A stretch of DNA of 6,669 bases from the NCBI GenBank assembly GCA_002470185.1, contig DKNG01000053.1, positions 1 to 6,669 on the forward strand. The letters run 5' to 3'. A program made the position numbers and the translations under genes. The notes under the pieces are model-generated. The model was not told the origin of the DNA and ran no database searches. It worked only from the letters and a program-made list of their open reading frames with translations. Each line of letters starts with the position of its first letter. Positions within the stretch are counted from its first letter, which is position 1. Of this stretch, positions 1,606 through 4,503 are shown piece after piece. This DNA is from Arcobacter sp. UBA7394. Its GTDB lineage: Bacteria; Campylobacterota; Campylobacteria; Campylobacterales; Arcobacteraceae.

Positions 1606-1626
1606 GTTCAAAAGATACATAAGAGT
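1606..1626 (+). promoter_or_regulatory. 21-bp upstream element, transporter copy
   Basis: The element begins GTTCAAAA, has G at 1614 and ends ATACATAAGAGT. A copy at 4483-4503 upstream of hypB is identical at 20 of 21 positions (A instead of G). It lies about 49-69 bases upstream of the start of transcription predicted for the transporter, a usual place for an activator. On the other strand it lies in the leader of the transposase-derived gene. The protein that binds it is unknown. Confidence 0.65.
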
Positions 1627-1632
1627 AACATG

Positions 1633-1668
1633 AAAATTAGTTTAACTTTATTTTGTTTAATATATACT
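1633..1668 (+). promoter_or_regulatory. Predicted promoter of the nickel transporter gene
   Basis: The -10-like hexamer TATACT is at 1663-1668. AAAATTAG at 1633-1640 lies exactly 22 bp before it, and the same AAAATTAG-N22-TAWACT arrangement occurs before hypB (4509-4544). The sequence between is T-rich, as is common in Campylobacterota promoters with weak -35 regions. The predicted start of transcription is near 1675. An overlapping minus-strand TATATT (1664-1659) may serve the divergent transposase-derived gene. Confidence 0.55.
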
Positions 1669-1677
1669 ACAAAAAAT

Positions 1678-1691
1678 TGAATAATCATTCA
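1678..1691. promoter_or_regulatory. Inverted repeat operator candidate TGAAT-N4-ATTCA, transporter copy
   Basis: TGAAT (1678-1682) and ATTCA (1687-1691) form a perfect 5-4-5 dyad. The same dyad, with a different 4-base centre, occurs upstream of hypB at 4553-4566. It lies just after the predicted start of transcription and one base before the ribosome binding site AAGGTG (1693-1698), which suits a repressor. The 5-4-5 layout is compatible with CRP/FNR-like or TetR-like regulators; the sequence does not decide which. Confidence 0.6.
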
Positions 1692-1703
1692 TAAGGTGAA
1701 AAT

Positions 1704-2345
1704 ATGGAATCAATAGGATTACTTTTAATATTTTGGTATGGAATTTTACATGCATTTGGACCAGACCATCTAACAGCAATTGCAGATTTTTCTATTGGAA
1801 AAAATAGAAGAAAAACAATGACAATTACAACGATGTTTGCTATAGGTCATGGTGTGTCTTTATTTATCTTTGCTAAGATTTTAGAAACGTACAATATCTC
1901 AGAGGATATTCTTGGATATGGAGATATTATCTCTGCATTAGTAATTTTTGGAATGGGTGTATATTTACTATTTTTAGTATTTACAAACAGAATCAACTTA
2001 AACAAGCACGTTCATGATGGAGTGGAGCATGTTCATATCTATTTTGGAAAAGAACATACGCACTCAAACAAAGATGTTACATCAGCATTCACAATAGGTA
2101 CACTTATGGGAATAGGTGGAGTTAGAGGAATGTTAGTTACTTTAGGTTTAGTTGAAGCAGCTAGTGTTGACTTCTCAATGGTATTGGCATTTACTTTAGG
2201 TGTTATGCTTATATTTATTGGTTTTGGTGCAGTTATTTTATATATCAATAGTAACTTATTAAAGTCAATAAAAAATATCAAAAGAGTATTTACATTTGCT
2301 GGGCTTGTTTCTTTAGTAGTTGGGTCTAATATTTTACTTGGATAG
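1704..2345 (+). CDS. NicO/UreH-like nickel (cobalt) transporter
   Basis: This is a 213-residue inner-membrane protein with about six membrane segments (roughly 4-29, 38-60, 72-95, 127-150, 157-182 and 192-212). The first segment carries HAFGPDH (H16 to H22), the HX4DH metal signature of nickel/cobalt permeases. GHG with H49 follows in segment 2, and GIGGVRG lies at 136-142. The loop between segments 3 and 4 is His-rich (H102, H104, H109, H111, H118, H120) and probably binds metal. Such proteins import Ni2+ or Co2+; export cannot be excluded from sequence alone, since related RcnA proteins are exporters. The nearby hyp genes and a promoter layout shared with hypB favour nickel uptake for [NiFe] hydrogenase. 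AAGGTG lies five bases before the ATG. The gene is transcribed alone and is convergent with the chemoreceptor gene. Confidence 0.88.
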   Translation: MESIGLLLIFWYGILHAFGPDHLTAIADFSIGKNRRKTMTITTMFAIGHGVSLFIFAKILETYNISEDILGYGDIISALVIFGMGVYLLFLVFTNRINLNKHVHDGVEHVHIYFGKEHTHSNKDVTSAFTIGTLMGIGGVRGMLVTLGLVEAASVDFSMVLAFTLGVMLIFIGFGAVILYINSNLLKSIKNIKRVFTFAGLVSLVVGSNILLG

Positions 2346-2361
2346 ATTTATTATGCAATGA

Positions 2362-2380
2362 GCAAGTTTTAAAAACTTGC
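2362..2380. terminator. Hairpin at the convergent junction, possible bidirectional terminator
   Basis: GCAAGTTTT (2362-2370) and AAAACTTGC (2372-2380) are perfect inverted repeats of 9 bp around a single A. The stem overlaps the stop and last codons of the chemoreceptor gene and lies 16 bases after the transporter stop. Neither strand has a T-run directly after the stem, and the inner A/T pairs would open as the loop, so it is not a textbook intrinsic terminator. I see no better one in the 23-bp gap between the two genes. Confidence 0.4.
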
Positions 2381-4309
2381 CCATTCATCTTCACTATCTT
2401 TTTTTGAATTATTTTTTTCTATTACTCTTTTTTCTGTTTTAACAGCTGTTCTATCTTCTTCTTTATTTTCTATTACTTTAGCCTTTACACTATCTTTTCC
2501 TATAAACTCTTTATCATTTGCATTTGAAACGACAAGTTTAGCAATAGTATCTGTTTGTACTGCAACTGTATAAGTTTGATTTGCAATTCTTGCATTTTGT
2601 TGTGTTTGTCTATCTAGTGAATTTACAGCATCATTAATTTGTTCAATTCCTGATAACTGTTCTTTACTAGATGATTCAACATTTTTGATTAGATCAATTG
2701 TTTTAGTGATATTTTCATTTAGATCTTTATATCCATGAATCATATCTTCAGATATTTTTTTACCTTGGTCAGCTTTTTGTGTAGCACTCTCTACTAAATC
2801 TTTAATCTCTTTTGCTGCTTCTGCTGATCTGCTTGCAAGATTTCTAACCTCTTGTGCAACTACTGCAAAACCTTTACCAGCTTCACCTGCTGTGGCTGCT
2901 TCAACAGCAGCATTTAGAGATAGAATATTTGTTTGGAATGCAATTTGATCAATTACTGTAATTGCTTCATTAATTGCATTTACTTCATTATCGATTTCAT
3001 TCATAGCGTCTGTTGTTTGATTAGCTAATTGTTCTCCAGAAGATACTGAGTTTGTAACACTTGAAGCTAGTTGTGACATTTGTACAATATTATTAGTATT
3101 ATTAGAAATATTGCTTGTGATTTGTTCAATTGCTGCGGCTGTTTCTTCTAAAGCTGCTGCTGCTTCATTTGAGTTTTTATTTAGAGTATCTACATTTTCT
3201 AGTAATACAACACTACTTTCATCTAGTGTTAAACCATTTGATTTATTCTCAACTAACATATCGTTGATAATATCAGCTAAATTATTCAATCCTACAGTAA
3301 CACCACTATTACAACCTTTGATTCTGTGTGTAAAGTCAAGTTTAGCATATCTCTCAAGTGCGTGTGAAATATCATTGATATTAGTACAAACTCTTAATTG
3401 TAAACTCATTAACATATCATTTATATGTCCTCTTAGACTTTCTAAACTGTCTGATTCAGCTTCATGATCTAATCTTTTATCTAAGTACCCATCTTTGATT
3501 TTCATAACTACATCATGTATTTCTGATAAAAATACATTATCTGAATCAATAGTAGCTTTAGTTTTAATAATATTAGTATTTACAACTTTAGCCATTGCTC
3601 CAAACTCATCATTTATAGAATCATCAAGCATCTGTACATTTGTATTCTCTTTATTTACATAAGAGAAGAATGACAATAATCCTTTTTGGAAGTTATTAAT
3701 AGAGTTAATTAACTGTTTTGATAAAAGTGTAGAGAATATGCTAAAGAACAAAATAGCAAGTACTGCAATACATAGTAATACTTCTTCCATAGTTTCAACA
3801 GCATTTTCTTTAAGTACAACAGCGTTTTCACTAATATGTGCTAATTTCTTCTCAAGACTAAGTCCAACTTGAACCATTTTTTTTATGATTGATTTAACTT
3901 CTTGACTCTCATCTTTTATACCATTTTGGTAATCAGTGATTCTAAGAGAAGCAAATTTATCAAAGTAGTTTATATACTCTTTTGATAGCTCTAAAATTTC
4001 ATTTGAAAGTTTAATATTCTCACTTTCTGTTAGATTTGGTTTTAATTTTGTAACGGAGGTGTTAAGTTCTGCAAAATCTACTCTTACTTTTTGAGCTGTT
4101 CTATCACTAGGTGATCTTAAAAACTGGTAAACAGAAATTCTTCCTTTTAAAACTTGTTGGATAAAAATATCTGTTTGAATAACAGTATTTGCTCTTTTCT
4201 CAGAGATACTATTAAAATAACTAAAAACAAAAGCAGAAATAATTACAATTAGAATAAATACTATAGGTAATAGCATTAATTTCATCTTTGTAGAAACATT
4301 TCTTAACAT
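2369..4309 (-). CDS. Methyl-accepting chemotaxis protein with several HAMP units and a CheR-binding tail
   Basis: This is a 646-residue membrane chemoreceptor. The first membrane segment is at about 11-32 and the second at about 177-197. The periplasmic part between them (33-176) is predicted helical, like four-helix-bundle sensors; its ligand cannot be read from sequence. HAMP or HAMP-like units follow at about 198-250, 262-315 and 316-352. The signalling hairpin spans about 375-595, with its conserved tip at 452-482 (IDQIAFQTNILSLNAAVEAA, then GEAGKGFAVVAQEV). After a charged, flexible linker (596-640) the protein ends in EWASF, which fits the x-[HFYW]-x-x-[HFYW] pentapeptide that tethers CheR and CheB. 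AAAGGAG lies five bases before the ATG at 4309. The gene sits between two nickel/hydrogenase loci but on the opposite strand. An FNR-like box lies upstream, so regulation by oxygen or respiratory state is possible. The product would pass signals through CheW and CheA. Confidence 0.95.
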   Translation of the reverse strand: MLRNVSTKMKLMLLPIVFILIVIISAFVFSYFNSISEKRANTVIQTDIFIQQVLKGRISVYQFLRSPSDRTAQKVRVDFAELNTSVTKLKPNLTESENIKLSNEILELSKEYINYFDKFASLRITDYQNGIKDESQEVKSIIKKMVQVGLSLEKKLAHISENAVVLKENAVETMEEVLLCIAVLAILFFSIFSTLLSKQLINSINNFQKGLLSFFSYVNKENTNVQMLDDSINDEFGAMAKVVNTNIIKTKATIDSDNVFLSEIHDVVMKIKDGYLDKRLDHEAESDSLESLRGHINDMLMSLQLRVCTNINDISHALERYAKLDFTHRIKGCNSGVTVGLNNLADIINDMLVENKSNGLTLDESSVVLLENVDTLNKNSNEAAAALEETAAAIEQITSNISNNTNNIVQMSQLASSVTNSVSSGEQLANQTTDAMNEIDNEVNAINEAITVIDQIAFQTNILSLNAAVEAATAGEAGKGFAVVAQEVRNLASRSAEAAKEIKDLVESATQKADQGKKISEDMIHGYKDLNENITKTIDLIKNVESSSKEQLSGIEQINDAVNSLDRQTQQNARIANQTYTVAVQTDTIAKLVVSNANDKEFIGKDSVKAKVIENKEEDRTAVKTEKRVIEKNNSKKDSEDEWASF

Positions 4310-4352
4310 ACGGGCTCCTTTAAAATAATATAACGTATAAAATTACATGATT

Positions 4353-4366
4353 TTGACATAAATCAA
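4353..4366. promoter_or_regulatory. FNR/CRP-like box TTGAC-ATAA-ATCAA upstream of the chemoreceptor gene
   Basis: The sequence differs at one position from the known FNR consensus TTGAT-N4-ATCAA; read on the minus strand it is TTGAT-TTAT-GTCAA. Its centre is about 50 bases upstream of the chemoreceptor ATG. A minus-strand TATATT at 4332-4327 would place the box near -40, as in FNR class II activation, but would leave a leader of only about ten bases. TATACG at 4339-4334 is an alternative -10. The box is more than 200 bp from hypB, so the chemoreceptor is its likelier target. Confidence 0.45.
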
Positions 4367-4369
4367 GCT

Positions 4370-4396
4370 TAATATTGCATGAAAATATCAATATAA
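4370..4396. promoter_or_regulatory. Dyad TAATATTG-N11-CAATATAA of unknown role
   Basis: The arms (4370-4377 and 4389-4396) match at 7 of 8 paired positions, with a perfect 6-bp core ATATTG/CAATAT. The 11-bp spacing resembles that of Helicobacter pylori NikR sites (TATWATT-N11-AATWATA), but the arm sequence differs. In DNA this AT-rich such a dyad can arise by chance. Confidence 0.25.
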
Positions 4397-4482
4397 TTAA
4401 TAAAAGTAATAAAATATTCTTGTAAAAATAATTTTTTGATACATAATTTTTATATTATTAGTTCAAACAAAAACTAAAATTG

Positions 4483-4503
4483 GTTCAAAAAATACATAAG
4501 AGT
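4483..4503 (+). promoter_or_regulatory. 21-bp upstream element, hypB copy
   Basis: This is the second copy of the element at 1606-1626; the only difference is A at 4491. It lies about 48-68 bases before the predicted hypB start of transcription, nearly the same place as in the transporter promoter. Its first seven bases, GTTCAAA, also occur at 4461-4467, exactly 22 bp upstream (about two helical turns), which may mark a second, weaker half-site. Confidence 0.65.

Follow-up and report, generated by a model that had tools for sequence, protein, structure and literature searches.

Two almost identical 21-bp elements stand ahead of a nicO-type nickel permease gene and of hypB in a contig of Arcobacter sp. 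UBA7394, which raises the question of whether they form one regulatory site and which protein would read it. The DNA examined, hereafter the window, is the whole of contig G000:C104 (6,669 nt), part of an assembly of 268 contigs, 2.54 Mb and 86% completeness. Genomes compared are labelled G (G000 being the source of the window) and loci L, and family f1 is taken as Arcobacteraceae. The closest named relatives of the hypB locus are an uncultured Campylobacterales bacterium (88%) and Arcobacter sp. EP1 (84%). Our analysis points to a likely regulator that the original prediction had missed, the predicted product of the adjoining minus-strand gene (934-1575). This is a divergent zinc-ribbon and helix–turn–helix (HTH) relative of IS1595-family transposases that appears non-catalytic and that probably binds the element and activates genes for nickel uptake and hydrogenase maturation.

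The two copies share a promoter layout

Comparison of the two elements, 1606-1626 and 4483-4503, bore out the single-base difference ascribed to them (20 of 21 positions match) and their common orientation, both lying on the plus strand. They are the only pattern matches with 0–2 mismatches in the source genome, the third having 3 mismatches, and the best 21-nt match between dinucleotide-shuffled intergenic pairs was 19, never 20, in 1,000 pairs. The element centres lie ~58–59 nt upstream of the transcription starts inferred from −10-like boxes, within the 50–70 bases that had been proposed. The surroundings had been described as otherwise diverged; this holds for the 30 nt upstream (no alignment; 835 of 1,000 shuffles reach the score) but not for the DNA downstream of both elements, which aligns with a score of 25 against a shuffle mean of 15.2, reached in 3 of 1,000 shuffles. 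The shared promoter stretch consists of the element, a −10-like box and a palindrome, TGAATn4ATTCA, and extends no further upstream.

Close relatives have not lost the element: site and transposase-like gene are kept in all eight hypB-bearing genomes of the genus, and in the other two of its ten genomes, G007 (88% complete) and G008 (85%), neither hypB nor the transposase-like gene was seen. Scanning the genus with the 21-bp pattern at 3 mismatches recovered the true sites, but chance matches in coding DNA as well. A shared activator site, as first proposed, is the best-supported reading of the pair, with binding and activation predicted from sequence.

A phylum-wide motif precedes nickel genes

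De novo motif discovery in the upstream regions of the transposase-like gene across the phylum (94 nonredundant regions of 110 nt) returned an asymmetric motif of ~22 bp, TTaGTyCyAAAAaTAtATAAGA, with a log-likelihood ratio of 701.6; three shuffled sets, for which fewer starting points were used, reached 72.5, 82.7 and 82.7. Its strongest G/C positions (G 0.82, C 0.97, G 0.97) are embedded in A+T-rich DNA. With the full matrix the nicO site of the window scores 21.1 bits and the hypB site 25.3 bits. A hold-out matrix trained on 63 nonredundant regions from families other than f1 ranked the hypB site first among 13,296 window positions and the nicO site third (15.0 bits). The match at rank 2 (5764-5785, 19.8 bits) lies inside the hypD coding sequence and is presumably due to chance. 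The locus-wide best hold-out match, placed for all of the 42 f1 loci except L100, L115, L118 and L120, adjoins the transposase-like gene in 32 of the 42; in five further loci (L095, L096, L105, L112 and L121) it lies 101–118 nt upstream of hypB, and in L217 it is the hypD coding match.

When 1.6 million positions were scanned with the matrix, 30 of the 33 matches of at least 18 bits lay ahead of nicO, hypB, hupE or cbiM. The loci scanned had been picked for hypB, hydrogenase or pattern matches (L012 and L027 being the same place), so this figure describes specificity within those loci. Searching 18 whole genomes for the pattern at up to 2 mismatches gave 190 matches as against 110 for a reversed control pattern, so the majority of such matches are noise. 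The enrichment expected in related genomes did emerge among the closest matches. For ten f1 genomes, complete or nearly so, 28 matches with 0–1 mismatch were listed, and 17 of them stand before genes for nickel uptake or hyp genes. These are hypB, a nikA (544.7 bits, cut-off 393), DUF4198-CbiM-CbiQ-ABC operons and a further DUF4198 gene. The DUF4198 calls are Pfam-confirmed in L309, L287 and L288 and otherwise judged by sequence. The remaining 11 comprise 2 inverted copies before hydA, 1 beside a transposase-like-type gene, 4 in coding DNA, 2 below 16 bits and 2 left out. The predicted targets of the motif are nicO, hypB, hupE, cbiM, DUF4198-CbiM operons and nikA. We also considered the motif as the own promoter of the transposase-like gene and nothing more, which is ruled out by the copies before hypB, cbiM, nikA and DUF4198 operons elsewhere.

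An inverted motif copy was seen in L292 (1500-1521; G346) and L267 (1501-1522; G131), 171 and 193 nt, respectively, before a hydrogenase small subunit gene. Around the source genome's own hydrogenase genes, no site was seen in the stretches examined.

Promoter geometry fits an activator

In 55 of 88 nonredundant promoters the −10-like hexamer starts 58 nt (37 cases) or 59 nt (18 cases) past the motif start, where 1.5 would be expected per offset, and the motif centre lies about 59 nt from the predicted transcription start. Some 59 nt upstream of the start is the classic position for an activator contacting polymerase. The same protein at the same site might instead repress nickel-uptake and hyp genes, for example at nickel plenty in the manner of NikR, and both the gene set, which is like that of nickel repressors, and the largely complementary distribution of NikR and the transposase-like gene (see below) would suit such a role. 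At its distance from the start, however, the site does not overlap the −10-like box, a spacing constant within a base in these 55 promoters is more easily explained by contact with polymerase than by blocking, and the palindrome at the transcription start would be the better position for a repressor. We regard repression as unlikely.

The palindrome TGAATn4ATTCA is matched at 9 or 10 of its 10 positions in 48 of 107 promoters, in 46 of these 48 at 65–79 nt past the motif start, while mononucleotide shuffles gave 34 matches in 2,140, none of them perfect. It is also present in 11 of the 24 genomes that lack the transposase-like gene, and is therefore probably a separate element belonging to another regulator. 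Operators of the ArsR/SmtB or CRP/FNR type have a TGAA-N6-TTCA or 5-4-5 half-site layout; by comparison of layouts alone, the palindrome is compatible with both.

The motif also starts less than 30 nt from the start codon of the transposase-like gene in 88 of 94 loci (15–19 nt in 37 of the 94), so that binding there would curb the gene's own expression. This suggests that the proposed activator would limit itself while acting on its targets.

Motif and transposase-like gene occur together

To compare site and gene we used 50 named genomes found via hypB loci, of which 26 have a full-length gene and 24 do not (four of the latter carry partial, insertion-sequence-like matches), and counted as a site any match of at least 14 bits no more than 350 nt upstream of nicO, hypB, hupE or cbiM. 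A site was present in 24 of the 26 genomes with the gene and in none of the 24 without a full-length one (P = 2.7e-12, ignoring kinship). The two gene-bearing exceptions are L037, which has a variant, and L069, where no site was found in a scan over nearly the entire 3.3-kb locus. Among loci without the gene, L057 has a near-site of 13.4 bits, and L033 has a 20.5-bit match at another place, 150 nt ahead of a different reading frame.

This association bears on the idea that a different protein binds the site, the transposase-like gene being a conserved neighbour and itself a target. The nearness of the site to the gene's own start codon would allow it to be a regulon member, but the co-occurrence spans several families and goes with the transposase-like gene, the sole regulator candidate compared, whose product has DNA-binding parts of its own. 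A different binder seems improbable to us, and we consider it very likely that the transposase-like protein binds the motif.

Gene order within the genus raises a further alternative. In G001, G004 and G009, nicO is next to hypB and a single site lies ahead of nicO, whereas in the window (G000) and in G002 a chemoreceptor gene separates the two and each has its own site. The two window copies might on these grounds reflect a recent promoter duplication upon arrival of the chemoreceptor, with no selection since; but the G002 copies, with 5 of their 21 bases different, have both retained the motif, which is moreover conserved well outside the genus, making this account of the pair very improbable. 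Duplication as such may be the origin of the second copy. Even less credible is a general promoter part, such as an upstream A+T-rich element or the extended core of a housekeeping sigma factor, which the constant distance to the −10-like box would suit but which accords neither with three conserved G/C positions in A+T-rich DNA nor with the absence of the motif before hypB and nicO in the 24 genomes that lack the gene.

Among 397 Campylobacterota genomes searched for the transposase-like gene, 158 gave any match and 126 a match after removal of weak ones (E > 1e-12); the weak matches, among those listed, cover the C-terminal part alone and stem partly from true insertion sequences. hypB exceeds its cut-off in 368 of the 397, and the gene is found in 124 of these 368 and in 2 of the 29 genomes without hypB; hypB being nearly universal, this comparison discriminates solely where it was lost. 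The NikR_C domain occurs in 147 genomes, and the distributions of NikR and the transposase-like gene are largely complementary, with 105 genomes having the gene only, 126 NikR only and 21 both (P = 4e-9 for exclusion, ignoring kinship). Of the double carriers, 19 belong to family f10. In eight of the nine double carriers that were measured, the nikR and gene matches are convergent and 54–90 nt apart (3,679 nt in the ninth). No NikR_C match was found in the 43 genomes of family f1, and PF08753 gave no match in the source genome, at its 86% completeness.

The transposase-like protein has lost its catalytic residues

We aligned 126 rows of the transposase-like protein (the window protein appearing twice) and compared them with six transposases. 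An N-terminal four-cysteine zinc ribbon (CxxC-CxxC) is present in 125 of the 126 rows. The column of the second catalytic Asp (D2) is a gap in all 126; the third catalytic position holds Glu in 6 rows (Tyr in the window protein) and the first Asp in 51 (Glu in the window protein). As judged from this alignment, the catalytic D-D-E of an active IS1595-family transposase is lost. Of 42 members, 26 match PF12760, the IS1595-type zinc ribbon, at E ≤ 1 (best 5e-5); the window protein scores 20.0 bits, below the cut-off of 25.4. PF12762, the ISXO2-like DDE domain, is matched at E ≤ 1 in 19 of 42 (best 1.7e-4) and is absent among the five matches listed for the window protein. Foldseek gave no significant structural match in the PDB.

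In a separate set of 126 gene loci, which includes paralogues and G002 and omits some partial matches, a divergent nicO, hypB, hupE, cbiM or nikK-like DUF4198 gene lies within 1.6 kb in at least 104. The gene recurs as a neighbour in other genera as well. Among the 120 homologues listed, 13 are named, 8 of them as transposase or transposase-like and 5 as hypothetical or uncharacterized, names that have hidden the gene from notice.

Several minor observations concern gene and site together. A second copy of the gene is present in some f1 genomes (L135, L150, L157 and L164), the first three being divergent from a DUF4198-like gene. In G381 (L309, 6735-6756), gene and site adjoin a restriction-type gene and no nickel gene, which looks like displacement of the target. 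A T-run variant of the motif (GGTCCGTTTTTTATATAGGA and alike) lies beside divergent gene forms in L173, L143, L180 and L192, where a joint change of site and protein is possible.

Proposed mechanism and relation to known regulators

In the mechanism that we propose, the transposase-like protein would use its zinc ribbon and HTH to bind the asymmetric site, in the way that a transposase binds the ends of a transposon, and from ~59 nt upstream of the transcription start would touch RNA polymerase. Given binding, activation of the targets is likely; the signal would on balance be nickel need or hydrogenase assembly. Such a protein, with its site, spacing and gene set, is now a candidate regulator for many Campylobacterota without NikR and, if the proposal is true, an example of a DDE transposase relative converted to a bacterial transcription factor.

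NikR combines a ribbon-helix-helix with a nickel-binding domain and recognizes a palindromic operator. It controls nickel-related genes in other Campylobacterota, as is proposed here for the transposase-like protein, but the latter is without the NikR C-terminal domain PF08753 and its motif is asymmetric. The regulon of NikR in H. pylori is reportedly the subject of PMC5385501. With IS1595/ISXO2 transposases it shares the IS1595-type zinc ribbon, the HTH, a degenerate DDE domain and a C-terminal KGI...YLKECEFRFN stretch; it differs in that the second catalytic Asp is deleted and the Glu mostly lost, and in having usually one copy per genome and a recurring neighbourhood. L248 and other copies in Campylobacter-type genomes, which we take to be an IS1016-like subgroup, are themselves without the zinc ribbon, and the terminal repeat of the L248 and L258 insertion sequences, GGCTCAAGATAAGTTAA, differs from the motif. 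By eye, motif and L248-type terminal repeat bear a loose resemblance, for which we make no claim.

TldR proteins, which descend from TnpB, offer a parallel as transposon proteins that have lost catalytic activity and are now regulators. Their source is a nuclease with a guide RNA and they are phage-encoded, whereas here a DDE transposase relative is associated with chromosomal metal genes. The abstract of PMC13418256 describes TldRs as RNA-guided transcription factors. Host co-option of mobile-element regulators is also treated in sections of PMC8987985 on Ner/SfsB and antitoxin-derived regulators, whose sources are element repressors or antitoxins; these sections include no DDE-transposase-derived one. 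For Campylobacterota, excerpts of PMC6682613, on respiratory regulation, give NikR and Fur for the H. pylori hydrogenase and name no such transposase-like gene, and those of PMC11334517, on an Arcobacter butzleri regulator, leave it unmentioned. NikR-independent regulation of NikABCDE is suggested in parts of PMC2667541 from the patchy distribution of NikR, and a gap is put on record in parts of PMC5357620. Among the papers listed by our literature searches, in which subscription journals are little covered, titles and the opening lines of abstracts held no description of the gene or the motif.

Organization of the window

Table 1. Features of the 6,669-nt window, in order of position
Feature	Position	Strand	Remarks
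Open reading frame (ORF)	3-902	minus	unassigned
Transposase-like gene, divergent from nicO	934-1575	minus	213 aa; zinc ribbon, HTH and degenerate IS1595-type transposase domain
Putative regulatory site 1, before nicO	1603-1626	+	21-mer 1606-1626; 22-bp motif 1603-1624
Predicted −10 box of nicO, TATACT	1663-1668	+	60 nt past motif start
Palindrome TGAATAATCATTCA near predicted nicO transcription start	1678-1691	+	second conserved element, TGAATn4ATTCA
nicO-type nickel permease, predicted target	1704-2345	+	PF03824, E 0.00037, 20.4 bits (below curated cut-off 27.7)
Methyl-accepting chemotaxis protein, between nicO and hypB	2369-4309	minus	PF00015
Putative regulatory site 2, before hypB	4480-4503	+	21-mer 4483-4503; 22-bp motif 4480-4501
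Predicted −10 box of hypB, TAAACT	4539-4544	+	59 nt past motif start
Palindrome TGAATGAATATTCA near predicted hypB transcription start	4553-4566	+	second conserved element, TGAATn4ATTCA
hypB, hydrogenase nickel incorporation GTPase, predicted target	4600-5403	+	TIGR00073, 277.7 bits
hypC, downstream of hypB, same predicted operon	5408-5689	+	TIGR00074
hypD, truncated by contig end	5699-6667	+	TIGR00075

A chemoreceptor among nickel genes

The chemotaxis receptor of the window is a possible candidate for a link to nickel, judging by the company it keeps. Taken furthest, and tentatively, the dead DDE-transposase relative could be the master regulator of nickel supply in NikR-less Campylobacterota. 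From a transposon-end-like asymmetric site 59 nt upstream it would activate hydrogenase maturation as well as nickel uptake. Its control would extend to a chemoreceptor in some Arcobacteraceae, whose cells could then swim by nickel need.

Relatives of the window chemoreceptor were found in nickel or hyp loci of seven other genomes, identity being 54–71% across the first 370 residues or over a long part. In G002, G319, G346 and G381 the motif separates such a relative from a divergently oriented hypB or DUF4198-CbiM operon.

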